Positions 3,002-9,649 of a DNA stretch of 64,000 nucleotides are shown here, one piece after another; position 1 is the stretch's first letter, and the number at the start of each line of letters is the position of its first letter. Below the pieces are notes generated by a model. It was not told the origin of the DNA and searched no databases. It saw only the letters and a list, made by a program, of their open reading frames with translations. The stretch is taken from assembly GCF_000379485.1 (NCBI RefSeq), contig NZ_KB902276.1, positions 186,001 to 250,000 on the forward strand. Reading direction: 5' to 3'. A program made the translations under genes and the position numbers. The stretch comes from Wenxinia marina DSM 24838. Its GTDB lineage: Bacteria > Pseudomonadota > Alphaproteobacteria > Rhodobacterales > Rhodobacteraceae.

Positions 3002-4396
3002 CTACCTGTAGGTCACCTGCTTGACCGCCTCGACCACCTCGTCGGCGGTCACCAGCGCCAGCTTCTCGAGGTTGGCGGCGTAGGGCATCGGCACGTCCTT
3101 GCCCGTCAGCGCGATCACCGGCGCGTCGAGCCAGTCGAACGCCTTCTGCATGATCTGGCTGCCGATCCAGCTGCCCACCGATCCCTGCGGCCAGCCTTCC
3201 TCGACGGTGACGCAGCGATTGGTCTTCTTCACGCTCTCCAGCACCGTGTCCATGTCCATCGGCCGGAGCGTGCGCAGGTCGATCACCTCGGCGTCGATTC
3301 CGTCCTCGGCCAGCTTCTCGGCGGCCTGCAGGGCGTAGGTCATGCCGATCCCGAAGCTGACGATGGTGACGTCGCTCCCCTCGCGGGCGATCTTCGCCTT
3401 GCCGAACGGCACGGTGAAGTCGTCGAGATCCGGCACCTCGAACGAGCGGCCGTAGAGGATCTCGTTCTCGAGGAAGATGACCGGGTTCGGATCGCGGATC
3501 GCGCTCTTCAGCAGGCCCTTGGCGTCGGCGGCGGTGTAGGGCATCGCGACCTTGAGACCCGGCACCTGCATGTACCAGGCGGCGTAGTCCTGGCTGTGCT
3601 GGGCGCCGACCCGCGCCGCCGCGCCGTTGGGGCCACGGAACACGATGGGGCAGCCCATCTGCCCGCCGGACATGTACAGCGTCTTGGCGGCGGAGTTGAT
3701 GAGCTGATCCATCGCCTGCATGGCGAAGTTGAAGGTCATGAACTCCACGATCGGACGCAGGCCGCCGAAGGCCGCGCCGACGCCGATGCCGGCGAAGCCA
3801 TGCTCGGTGATCGGCGTGTCGATCACCCGCTTGGCGCCGAACTCGTCCAGCAGCCCCTGGGTGATCTTGTAGGCGCCCTGGTACTCGGCCACCTCCTCGC
3901 CCATCACGAAGACGCTGTCGCTTCGGCGCATCTCCTCGGCCATCGCGTCGCGCAGCGCCTCGCGGACGGTCTGCGTCTTCATCTTGGTGCCCTCGGGCCA
4001 GTCCGGCGTGCGCGGCGGCTTGGGCGCCGCGGCGGCGGGAGAGGCGGCGACGGGCTCGCTGGTGGGCGGGGGCGCGTCGGTCTTGTCCTTCTCCTTCGCC
4101 TCGGCCTTGGGCGCGCTGCCCGAGCCGGCATCCTCGGCGGCGGAGGCGTCCTCGCCCTCCTCCAGCATGACCGCGATGGGGGTGTTCACCTTCACCCCTT
4201 CGGTGCCCTCGGCGATCAGGATCTTGCCGAGGACGCCCTCGTCGACGGCCTCGAACTCCATCGTGGCCTTGTCGGTCTCGATCTCGGCCAGGATGTCGCC
4301 GGAGGAGACGGGATCGCCCTCCTTCTTCAGCCACTTGGCGAGCGTCCCTTCCTCCATCGTGGGGGACAGGGCCGGCATCAGGATTTCGGTCGCCAT
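3002..4396 (-). CDS. pdhB: Pyruvate dehydrogenase E1 beta subunit with N-terminal lipoyl domain
   Basis: Beta subunit of the thiamine-diphosphate-dependent E1, which with PdhA decarboxylates pyruvate and acetylates lipoate. The 464-residue protein is longer than a plain E1 beta (about 330) because of an N-terminal lipoyl domain (1 to about 78, lipoyl lysine K43 in [10 protein letters not shown]) and an Ala/Pro/Glu/Lys linker. The E1 beta part begins near residue 136 with [14 protein letters not shown] and keeps the [12 protein letters not shown] and ITEHGFAG blocks. Lipoyl-E1 beta fusions are known in alphaproteobacteria. It lies downstream of pdhA and three exported-protein genes, six bases after the last. 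Confidence 0.96.
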
Positions 4397-4402
4397 ACGG
4401 GG

Positions 4403-4966
4403 TCAGTCTCCCTCGCTGTCACGCGCGGCGCAGAAGGCCGCAAGATCGGTCACGGCCTCGGCCACGGTGTCGATGTCGGTCTCGGCGGTGTCGCCCGTCA
4501 CGGTCAGGTACACGTCCCGCGCCTCGGTCGAGGCGTCGCAGTACCAGCCGTCGCAGGTCGCGCCGTACTTGTCGATGTAGGTCCGGTGCAGCTTGCCGGT
4601 GATGTCGTAGAGCGTCAGGTCGTAGCGCACCGGCGGCGCGCCCTCGCGCAGCGGCACGACGAGCTGCAAGGACCCGGCCGAGATCGGCTCGGCCACGGCG
4701 CCCGCCGCGTCGACGTCGGCGTAGTCCACGGCAACCCGCGTCTCCACCTCGACGCCGTCGCCCAGACGCTGGGTGCTGCGATGGCTGTAGAGGCAGGGCG
4801 CGTCGCGGCCCATGATCGAACTGTGGGTGGACCCGGTCCGGTTGAGGATGCGGTTCATCCGGTCGAAGGCGAGGAACTCGTCGGGGTCGATCGACTGCGC
4901 GGACGCGAGCGCCGGCGCGGTCAGCGCCAGCGCCCCGAGGGCCGGAAAGAGGGCCCCCGCCTGCAT
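4403..4966 (-). CDS. Exported Cys protein, third of the pdh-locus triplet
   Basis: A 187-residue protein with a Sec-type signal peptide (hydrophobic core about 4-18, cleavage likely near ALASAQ-S). The mature part keeps the triplet pattern: helix, Cys in DAPCLYS, beta-rich middle, a Cys pair (GATCDGWYCD, C-x4-C), and a C-terminal helix ending in a Cys (AVTDLAAFCAARD). It is the most divergent of the three. Its ATG overlaps the stop of the upstream paralogue by one base (TGATG), and pdhB starts six bases after its stop. Function unknown; four Cys in an exported protein suggest two disulfides in the periplasm. Confidence 0.82.
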   Translation of the reverse strand: MQAGALFPALGALALTAPALASAQSIDPDEFLAFDRMNRILNRTGSTHSSIMGRDAPCLYSHRSTQRLGDGVEVETRVAVDYADVDAAGAVAEPISAGSLQLVVPLREGAPPVRYDLTLYDITGKLHRTYIDKYGATCDGWYCDASTEARDVYLTVTGDTAETDIDTVAEAVTDLAAFCAARDSEGD

Positions 4967-5499
4967 CAGCCGCAGGCCGCCGCGAAGTCGCTGAGCGCGG
5001 TCGAGAAGGCGCGCGCCCGGTCCATCCCCGCCTCTTCGCCGGCGACGTAGAACACGACCGGCATCCGCGGCGCGGCCTGCGTGGCCGAGCAGGGACCGGC
5101 GGCCGAGCAGTCGGCGCCGAGGCCGGCGGCGAACGTCTCGCGCAGCGTCGGGTCGTCGTTGTCGAGGATCATCGTCAGCTCGATCGGGGCCTGATCCTCC
5201 CGCGGGATCCAGATGTTGAACCGGTCCTCCTTGGGGTCCGGCGTGAAGGCGGCGGGGAACAGCTCGCGTGCGTCCACCGTGGCGGTCGCCGTCATCGGCG
5301 CGCCCAGCTGCGACGAGACCGCCGTCGTGGAGGAGGTCAGCATGCAGCCGTCGGCGGTGATCGCGACATGGGGCACGTCGCCCTCGGCGCCGGTGTTCGC
5401 CAGCTCCTGCAGGGTGGCGAGCGCGGCGTCCGCGTCCTGGGCGAGCGCCGGCAGCGCGAGGGTGCCGGCGAGTGAGAGTGAGAGAAGAAAGGTCTTCAT
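4966..5499 (-). CDS. Exported Cys protein, second of the pdh-locus triplet
   Basis: A 177-residue protein with a signal peptide (MKTFLLSLSLAGTLALPALAQ, cleavage probably after ALA). The mature N-terminus QDADAALATLQ resembles that of the first paralogue (QDADAAFAALD). Conserved landmarks are ADGCMLTS, a C-x5-C pair (GADCSAAGPC) and the end LSDFAAACG. The beta-rich centre contains ELTMILDND. Translation is coupled to the next gene by TGATG. It has no recognisable catalytic motif, so it could be a binding or scaffold protein of the periplasm. Confidence 0.85.
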   Translation of the reverse strand: MKTFLLSLSLAGTLALPALAQDADAALATLQELANTGAEGDVPHVAITADGCMLTSSTTAVSSQLGAPMTATATVDARELFPAAFTPDPKEDRFNIWIPREDQAPIELTMILDNDDPTLRETFAAGLGADCSAAGPCSATQAAPRMPVVFYVAGEEAGMDRARAFSTALSDFAAACG

Positions 5500-5530
5500 G
5501 TGGTCAATGTCCTTATCAAAAACGGGCCGT

Positions 5531-6079
5531 CTATCCGCCGCAGACCGCGACGAATTCCTTAAGGGCGGAAATGATCGCCCCTTCCTGTGCGTCGCGGTCG
5601 TCGTCGAGCGCGAGAAGTATGACCTCGCCCTCCTCGATCACGTAGGTGCAGCCGCTGTCGTCGCAGCTGCCGCCGGGAATGTTCTCCTCGAAGAAGGTCC
5701 GCTGCTCATCCGTGTCGGCCGGCGCGGTGACGATGCGGTCCACGCCGGGCGTATCTGGCTGGATGCCGCCGAAGACGATGGTGCGGACCTCGATGGCGGG
5801 GTCCATGAGGATGTCGTCGTCGCTGTCCGGGTGCTCGAGGTCGAGGGCGGCCGGGTCGAACGTGAAGGTCGCGGTCAGGACCGTCGGGCCGACCGCCTGG
5901 CTGGCGGAATAGGTCAGCGCGCACCCGTCGCCGCGGCTGATCCCGGCCGTCGTGACGTTGGTCCCCGCCACGCCACGGGTCGCCGCCGCGTCCAGCGCGG
6001 CGAAGGCCGCGTCGGCGTCCTGCGCTGCGGCGGGGGCGGCGAGGGAGAGGCAGAGGGCGGCGAGGGCGGGACGGCGCAT
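5531..6079 (-). CDS. Exported Cys protein, first of the pdh-locus triplet
   Basis: A 182-residue protein with a short signal peptide (MRRPALAALCLSLAAPAAAQ). Mature start QDADAAFAALDAAATRG, then GDGCALTYS, an acidic beta-rich segment (PDSDDDILMDP), a Cys pair (GGSCDDSGCTY, C-x4-C) and the end ALKEFVAVCGG. It lies 40 bases downstream of pdhA on the same strand and 31 bases before its paralogue, so it is likely co-transcribed with pdhA-pdhB-pdhC. No known family recognised. A cytosolic enzyme operon carrying exported proteins is unexpected. Confidence 0.85.
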   Translation of the reverse strand: MRRPALAALCLSLAAPAAAQDADAAFAALDAAATRGVAGTNVTTAGISRGDGCALTYSASQAVGPTVLTATFTFDPAALDLEHPDSDDDILMDPAIEVRTIVFGGIQPDTPGVDRIVTAPADTDEQRTFFEENIPGGSCDDSGCTYVIEEGEVILLALDDDRDAQEGAIISALKEFVAVCGG

Positions 6080-6119: not shown

Positions 6120-7154
6120 TCAGGCTTCCGCCGGCTCGCCCTGGGGGATGTCGGTGGCGTAGATGTCGGTCCACAGCTCGGACACGTCGGGCTCGGGGCT
6201 GTCCTTGCTGAACTCCGCCGCCTCGTTGACGATGTCCTTGATCTCCTTGTCGATCGCCTTCAGCTCGTCCTCGGAGGCGTGGCTGCCGGTCAGCAGCAGC
6301 TGGCGGACGTTCTCGATCGGGTCGCGCTCGTCCCGCATCTTCTGGACTTCCTCGCGGGTGCGGTACTTCGCCGGGTCCGACATGGAGTGGCCGCGGTAGC
6401 GGTAGGTCTTCACCTCGAGGATGTAGGGACCCTTGCCGGCGCGGCAGTGCTCCACCGCCTTCTGGCCCGCGGCCTTGACGGCGAGGACGTCCATCCCGTC
6501 CACCTCCTCGCCCTCGATCCCGTAGGCGGCGCCGCGCTGCCAGTAGGTCGGCGACTTGGTGCTGCGCTTGGTCGAGGTGCCCATCGCGTACTGGTTGTTC
6601 TCGATCACGAAGACGACCGGCAAGTCCCACAGCTCGGCCATGTTGTAGGTCTCGTAGACCTGGCCCTGGTTCGCCGCGCCGTCGCCGAAATAGGTGAAGG
6701 TCACGCGGTCGTTGCCGAGGTACTTGTCGGCGAAGGCGAGGCCGGCGCCGATCGGCACCTGCGCCGCGACGATGCCGTGGCCGCCGTAGAAGTGCTTCTC
6801 GCGGCTGAACATGTGCATCGAGCCGCCCTTGCCGCCGGAATAGCCGCCCTCGCGGCCCGTCAGCTCGGCCATCACGCCCTTGGGGTCCATCCCGCAGGCC
6901 AGCATGTGGCCGTGGTCGCGGTAGGAGGTCACCCGCTTGTCGCCCTCGTCCGCCGCGGCCTCCAGCCCGACGACGACGGCCTCCTGGCCGATGTAGAGGT
7001 GGCAGAAGCCGCCGATCAGGCCCATGCCGTACAGCTGTCCCGCCTTCTCCTCGAAGCGGCGGATCAGCAGCATCTCGCGGTAATAGTGCTTCAGCTCGTC
7101 GGCCGAGACGTTGGCCTTGGCATCCGGTTTCGCACCCGACTTCGCGGTGGCCAT
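6120..7154 (-). CDS. pdhA: Pyruvate dehydrogenase E1 alpha subunit
   Basis: Alpha subunit of the E1 component (pyruvate decarboxylation, thiamine diphosphate cofactor). The 344-residue protein has the ThDP/Mg motif beginning GDGAANQGQ and ending in ENNQYAMGT, the phosphorylation-loop-like region YRYRGHSMSDP, and the GGKGGSMHMF block. The start at 7154 follows a strong ribosome site (gagggaggg); longer in-frame extensions upstream are low-complexity and lack one. First gene of the minus-strand pdh operon; its promoter should lie in 7155-7339, shared with the divergent hydrolase gene. Confidence 0.96.
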   Translation of the reverse strand: MATAKSGAKPDAKANVSADELKHYYREMLLIRRFEEKAGQLYGMGLIGGFCHLYIGQEAVVVGLEAAADEGDKRVTSYRDHGHMLACGMDPKGVMAELTGREGGYSGGKGGSMHMFSREKHFYGGHGIVAAQVPIGAGLAFADKYLGNDRVTFTYFGDGAANQGQVYETYNMAELWDLPVVFVIENNQYAMGTSTKRSTKSPTYWQRGAAYGIEGEEVDGMDVLAVKAAGQKAVEHCRAGKGPYILEVKTYRYRGHSMSDPAKYRTREEVQKMRDERDPIENVRQLLLTGSHASEDELKAIDKEIKDIVNEAAEFSKDSPEPDVSELWTDIYATDIPQGEPAEA

Positions 7155-8294: not shown

Positions 8295-8948
8295 TCACAG
8301 GCTGTCGAACTGGATTTCGGTGTCGAAGGTGCCTTCGACACGGCGGCAGTCCGTCTCGTCGAAGGCGATCGCCTCGCCGTCGGTCGGGCAGACCGTCGCC
8401 GCATAGCGCCCCGTCGCGTGCCCGTAGACCTCGTCGCCGTCCCGCTCCAGCGTCTCCAGCACCAGCGTCGCGGCCCCGGGGAGGGACTGCCAGCGGGGCC
8501 CGACGATGCTGTCCTCCTTCGTGAGCGCGACCACCGCCGCCGTCGTTTCGCCCGGCGCGAGCGACGGAAGGGTGCCGCGGACGAACAGCCAGCCACGGTC
8601 CGCCTCCGGGTCGCCGTCCGGCAGGCCCCTCAGGGACAGCTGGATGGCGCCATCCACCCGCTGCAGCCACGCCGTGGCGTCGAACGCGCCGACCGAGAAG
8701 TCGAACGTCGTCCACTCGAAGGGCCGGCCGTCCAGGCGCGCCCGCATCGTCCCCATCACCGGCCATCCGCCCTCCGGCGGACCGGGCACGAAGGTCCGGA
8801 TCACCTCCATCCCTTGCGGCCCGCCCGAGGTCGTCGTGACGAGCGTGCCGCCCTCGACCTCTTCCTCCGCGACCACCGTGCCCGGCGGCGGGACGGTTTC
8901 GGCGCAGGCGGCGAGGGCCAGGAGGGCGAGGACGAGGAAAGGGCGCAT
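8295..8948 (-). CDS. Lipoprotein, paralogue of the next exported protein
   Basis: A 217-residue lipoprotein: signal MRPFLVLALLALAAC with a lipobox (LALAAC). The mature part is beta-rich and matches the neighbouring product at 9009-9536 over most of its length: WTTFDFSVGA against WTTYDLSVGA, LPGAATLVLETLERDGD against LPGAGTLHVTSLERAGD, and ends DCRRVEGTFDTEIQFDSL against DCREVEGHFETEIRFDSM. Two Cys near the C-terminus (VCPTDG and TDCRRV) are shared. The start follows the ribosome site ctggagg. No known domain recognised; probably membrane-anchored in the periplasm or outer membrane. Confidence 0.85.
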   Translation of the reverse strand: MRPFLVLALLALAACAETVPPPGTVVAEEEVEGGTLVTTTSGGPQGMEVIRTFVPGPPEGGWPVMGTMRARLDGRPFEWTTFDFSVGAFDATAWLQRVDGAIQLSLRGLPDGDPEADRGWLFVRGTLPSLAPGETTAAVVALTKEDSIVGPRWQSLPGAATLVLETLERDGDEVYGHATGRYAATVCPTDGEAIAFDETDCRRVEGTFDTEIQFDSL

Positions 8949-9008
8949 GGAGACCTCCAGATGACGCTGCGGCATCCTGCCGCGCGGCGGTGCCCGGGCC
9001 AACCCCGG

Positions 9009-9536
9009 TCACATGCTGTCGAACCGGATTTCGGTCTCGAAATGCCCCTCGACCTCGCGGCAGTCGTTCGGGTCGCGAGTCGCCGCCTCGGGATCGCCGT
9101 CGGCGAGGCAGAAGCGGCCGGCGAAGTCGCCGCGGGCGCGGCCGTAGCCGTCGTCTCCCGCGCGCTCCAGCGACGTGACATGAAGTGTTCCGGCGCCCGG
9201 CAGCGTCTCCCACCGCAGCCCCACGAGGTCGGCGCCCACGAGGGCCAGCCTCACCTCCTCGGCCGCGCCGGGGGCGGCGTCCGGCAGCACGCCGACGAGG
9301 AGGATCCGCCCCTCGCCCGCGTCCGGTTCGCCCGGCCGGTAGCCCAGGATCGACAGGCGGACGCTCCCGGTGTCGTCGGTCATCCGGGGCGACGCGCCGG
9401 ACGCGCCGACCGAGAGGTCGTAGGTCGTCCAGAGCTGCGCCAGCCCGTCCACCTCGGCGGTGACTGTGCCCCTCTCGGACCACTCCTCGGACAGGGCGGG
9501 AGCGGCTGCGAGGCAGAGGGCGAGGGCGAGACGCAT
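9009..9536 (-). CDS. Exported protein, paralogue of the adjacent lipoprotein
   Basis: A 175-residue protein with a Sec signal (MRLALALCLAAAPALS, cleavage near ALS-E) and no lipobox Cys at the cleavage site. It shares the mature fold blocks of the 8295-8948 lipoprotein, including the two C-terminal Cys and the ending VEGHFETEIRFDSM. The pair is on the same strand, 60 bases apart, and looks like an old tandem duplication in which one copy is lipid-anchored and the other free. It is divergent from the acyl-CoA dehydrogenase gene. Function unknown. Confidence 0.83.
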   Translation of the reverse strand: MRLALALCLAAAPALSEEWSERGTVTAEVDGLAQLWTTYDLSVGASGASPRMTDDTGSVRLSILGYRPGEPDAGEGRILLVGVLPDAAPGAAEEVRLALVGADLVGLRWETLPGAGTLHVTSLERAGDDGYGRARGDFAGRFCLADGDPEAATRDPNDCREVEGHFETEIRFDSM

Positions 9537-9649
9537 GGGGCACCTGTGGCGAAGCACGCCCCCTTGAACCCGCTGCCGCCACGTCGCGCAAGGGCGCAGT
9601 CTGGCCGCGGTGCGCCTGCCTGCGCATACTCGGCCCCGGAGGTGACCCC

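Follow-up and report, generated by a model that had tools for sequence, protein, structure and literature searches.

The analyzed window comprises 64,000 bp of the Wenxinia marina DSM 24838 genome (Rhodobacteraceae) and includes a pyruvate dehydrogenase (PDH) operon on the minus strand. Between pdhA, which encodes the E1 alpha subunit (6120..7130; start near 7133, stop at 6120), and pdhB, which encodes the E1 beta subunit with an N-terminal lipoyl domain (3002..4396; start at 4396), lie three ORFs on the same strand. In order from pdhA, they encode predicted exported proteins of 182 aa (5531..6079), 177 aa (4966..5499) and 187 aa (4403..4966), which we refer to as the first, second and third Cys4 proteins. 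A sequence-only reading of this DNA had described three adjacent genes at this site that overlap or nearly abut, and the locus agrees with that description. The pdhA gene is followed after 40 nt by the first gene and after a further 31 nt by the second. The second and third genes overlap by 1 nt (TGATG), the start of the third lying on the stop of the second, and 6 nt separate the third gene from pdhB. Start codons also abut or overlap preceding stops at the corresponding loci of genomes G371 and G273. The pdhA-pdhB interval of the window contains neither a promoter-like site nor a convincing terminator. The GC content at third codon positions is 0.91-0.95 in the three genes and 0.96-0.97 in pdhA and pdhB. 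Their codon-position GC matches that of the flanking genes, and the three ORFs are typical coding sequences.

Other small genes occur in the same region. Two minus-strand ORFs of 84 and 85 aa occupy the pdhB-pdhC gap (2487-2998), and relatives of both occur at the pdh loci of other Rhodobacteraceae. The 85-aa ORF (2741-2998) had no match in Pfam or NCBIfam. Upstream of the pdh region are two adjoining exported-looking proteins (8295-9002 and 9009-9557) that are similar in sequence and share a W/LWTTYDLSVGA-like motif; neither has a significant Pfam match.

The N-termini of the three Cys4 proteins resemble Sec signal peptides, with probable cleavage sites at AAA/QD, ALA/QD and ASA/QS. This is in line with the signal peptides proposed earlier, with the qualification that the n-region of the third protein is weak, as it contains no Lys or Arg. 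Each mature chain contains four cysteines. In the first protein they fall in the motifs DGC, CDDSGC and VCGG, in the second in DGC, CSAAGPC and AACG, and in the third in APC, CDGWYC and FCAA, so that the spacing of the central pair in gene order is C-x4-C, C-x5-C and C-x4-C.

Relatives of these proteins were difficult to detect by sequence. A BLAST-type whole-genome search with the second protein recovered its own sister gene and one relative, in G026, at 40% identity. A four-protein profile that included these sequences added G003, G371, G273 and G001, the last from the same genus as the genome of the window, and a profile of eight mature chains added G274. In total, the whole-genome searches of 395 Rhodobacteraceae genomes (approximately one per genus) yielded six further relatives. 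A seventh, in G367 (locus L171), was missed by the profiles and was found in a survey of pdhA-pdhB gaps; it is predicted to be exported and has the same four cysteines. A single-sequence peptide scan of genome contigs with the first protein identified no relative, and a back-translated search with alignment A2 was of no use, as conservation was too low. Families of this kind thus escape single-sequence searches almost entirely and are revealed by their position.

In leave-one-out HMM comparisons, each of the ten proteins scored 25-71 bits against the other nine (50.3, 70.9 and 40.2 bits for the first, second and third window proteins), and the best of 1999 shuffled sequences scored 7-16 bits. 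Homology therefore rests on more than the cysteine plan, and we conclude that the three window ORFs are homologous and belong to one real family. All ten members, from eight genomes and seven genera, have a signal peptide, the order C1...C2-x4/5-C3...C4 with exactly four cysteines in the mature chain, and a location between pdhA and pdhB. C1 is preceded by (D/E)(G/S) or by AP. The C2-C3 spacing is C-x4-C in all members except one, where it is C-x5-C, and C4 lies close to where the C-terminal helix ends. Beyond the four cysteines, the invariant columns are one Gly column and positions in the signal peptide. The common cysteine plan first noted in the window is thus shared by all seven relatives from other genomes, far above what is expected by chance.

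The sequence-only reading had named no known family, and our searches of Pfam, NCBIfam, PADLOC and PDB sequences agree. The three window proteins had no match in Pfam or NCBIfam at E-values up to 1, and a Pfam scan of the family members returned stray sub-threshold matches only. PADLOC and a plasmid collection had no match to the family, and a PDB sequence search with the second protein found no relative. A PDB profile match to 6vtw (E = 0.014, 47 aa, model positions 122-163) was judged to be due to chance, and one match in PHROGs was judged stray. Our literature search found no report of such a gene. The Cys4 family is undescribed in the libraries searched.

The eight carrier genomes represent 7 of 394 genera. 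Three copies occur in the genome of the window only, and the other seven carriers each have a single copy, so the expectation of a triplet conserved in many genera fails. The proposal that the family is locked into the pdh operon was borne out, as every recognized member, in all genomes, sits between pdhA and pdhB. Profile searches of the 395 genomes recognized no copy outside this slot, though divergent copies could escape detection, as that of G367 did. A class-wide search (327 alphaproteobacterial genomes) yielded no credible member outside Rhodobacteraceae. Apart from the window's own genome, its matches had E-values of 0.0017-0.0097 and were rejected, being mostly limited to the signal-peptide part; a match in L263 is to ComEC and was considered a chance match.

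We surveyed 203 distinct pdhA-pdhB intervals. Because the carriers were deliberately included in this set, the value of 8 of 203 should not be read as a frequency; the figure of 7 of 394 genera is a better guide. The gap is ≤60 bp in 168 of the 203 intervals. Other occupants include a VOC/glyoxalase-like protein (17/203), small membrane proteins (6/203) and four others (L094, L096, L150, L185 and L254 exemplify the variability of the gap). In G026, the slot holds one gene of each type, VOC and Cys4, in tandem. The VOC protein of other Rhodobacteraceae is, like Cys4, the product of a small gene in the same slot and on the same strand, but it has a cytosolic Glyoxalase/Ble-like fold and an unrelated sequence. 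Given that other small genes also occupy the gap, we regard it as a variable cassette slot. Distances between VOC proteins do not follow those between PdhB proteins (Mantel r = -0.12, a test weakened by outliers), which hints at turnover of the slot contents.

The sequence-only reading had speculated that such proteins could sense, protect or regulate something at the envelope in connection with carbon flux. As the gap takes unrelated small genes in other genera, position alone proves no functional link to PDH, and the connection may be positional only. One possible explanation, less favored than the main one given below, is that small genes settle between pdhA and pdhB because the site is permissive and strongly expressed, and that Cys4 has a job at the envelope unrelated to pyruvate dehydrogenase. 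The VOC and membrane proteins in the slot and the failure of VOC distances to follow PdhB distances are consistent with this. So are the dispersal of the carriers over the PdhB tree (6 changes, against a mean of 7.9 after shuffling) and the empty slot in G019 (L133), a close PdhB neighbor of a carrier. However, a free-standing envelope gene would be expected elsewhere too, and across the 395 genomes every recognizable copy is in the slot.

The family diverges rapidly. Cys4 identity is 18-37% in pairs of genomes whose PdhB proteins are 76-89% identical, and identities among the three copies in the window, which we regard as diverged paralogues of one domain, are 23-35%. The branches of the family tree are too long to support either a sister or a non-sister relationship among these copies. 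The lack of recognized copies elsewhere argues for one old insertion followed by many losses, or for recombination-borne spread via the conserved flanks. Fast change and tandem paralogues could also reflect selection to vary; the product would then be an inhibitor or immunity-type protein of the envelope that is caught in an arms race with, for example, a hydrolase or the toxin of a competitor. The low identity between members, the three diverged copies in one genome, and the predicted small, exported, disulfide-stabilized protein would fit such a role. We nevertheless consider it unlikely, because the family is locked in a housekeeping operon, matches nothing in PADLOC and no Pfam family of toxins or inhibitors, and no partner gene was identified nearby.

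The AlphaFold model of the second window protein, based on the ten-sequence alignment, is confident, with a pLDDT of 90.8 and a pTM of 0.82. The predicted order of elements is a helix, six strands, a helix, two strands and a long C-terminal helix. The most divergent member, from G367, was predicted with the same element order (pLDDT 82.9), the same alignment having been used for both runs. The model places C1 in a hairpin turn, C2 and C3 on either side of a short loop, and C4 at the end of the last helix. This placement suggests disulfides C1-C4 and C2-C3, which is the probable pairing. Separately, at locus L121 of G005 we noted a large exported repeat protein (plus strand, from about 1390) whose first domain is a weak match to the Cys4 profile (16.6 bits, against 11.9 for the best shuffle). 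This domain keeps C1 and C4 without the C2-C3 pair, and loss of that pair alone is what a C1-C4 and C2-C3 pairing would predict.

Foldseek found no significant structural match (best E = 0.06), and a viral fold library had none under E = 0.03, although a missing structural match does not prove a new fold. In a second structural comparison, PH-like domains headed the VIA list for both models, as weak matches with Z-scores of up to 4.8 and 7.2, in the range below 8 where a common arrangement is possible. What these domains (Grp1, GRK2, TFIIH p62, FACT Pob3/Spt16, RanBP1) may share with the Cys4 models is a beta barrel closed by a C-terminal helix. They are eukaryotic, cytosolic or nuclear, and have no sequence match to Cys4, whereas Cys4 proteins are bacterial, predicted to be exported and disulfide-bonded, and have an extra N-terminal helix. 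As assignment to the PH-like group implies a seven-stranded barrel capped by a C-terminal helix and a clear structural match, we interpret the likeness as a possible common arrangement, not as membership.

The variable spacing of C2 and C3 (x4 or x5) fits a structural pair rather than a redox-active one. A redox-active thiol protein or redox sensor acting through the C-x4-C pair is very improbable: a conserved cysteine pair in an exported protein is compatible with it, but in place of a CxxC active site all ten members have C-x4-C or C-x5-C (x5 in one), the element order is not that of a thioredoxin fold, and there is no thioredoxin-family match.

The explanation that we favor, with modest confidence, is that Cys4 is an exported, two-disulfide binding domain that is co-expressed with PDH, is restricted to certain lineages, and resides in a variable pdhA-pdhB slot of Rhodobacteraceae. 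The genes adjoin their neighbors closely and are probably on the pdh message; if so, the Cys4 dose should follow PDH expression. The signal peptide points to export of a soluble product. Two disulfides would then staple a small helix/beta-barrel/helix domain of the predicted fold. In the probable arrangement, C1-C4 would pin the C-terminal helix to a beta hairpin and C2-C3 would close the short loop between these two cysteines. As there is no other invariant polar residue, the product most likely acts at the envelope in binding or as a scaffold, not as an enzyme. Small periplasmic disulfide proteins, such as IalB and lysozyme inhibitors of the MliC/PliC type, resemble Cys4 in size, export and cysteine pairs, but no member matches such Pfam families, even at E-values up to 1.

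A bolder and more doubtful proposal is that these genes are an envelope arm of the pdh operon in some Rhodobacteraceae. The family would then be a dedicated set of exported domains, co-translated with E1 and swapped as a cassette between the conserved pdhA and pdhB flanks, whose sensing, binding or protection of some target at the cell surface would scale with pyruvate flux.

Across hundreds of genomes this family has a single address, the gap that separates the genes for two subunits of the same enzyme complex, and this constitutes a rare natural experiment. Either pyruvate dehydrogenase and the cell envelope are linked in a way not suspected so far, or operons of core metabolism contain exchangeable cassette slots that shelter fast-evolving exported proteins.
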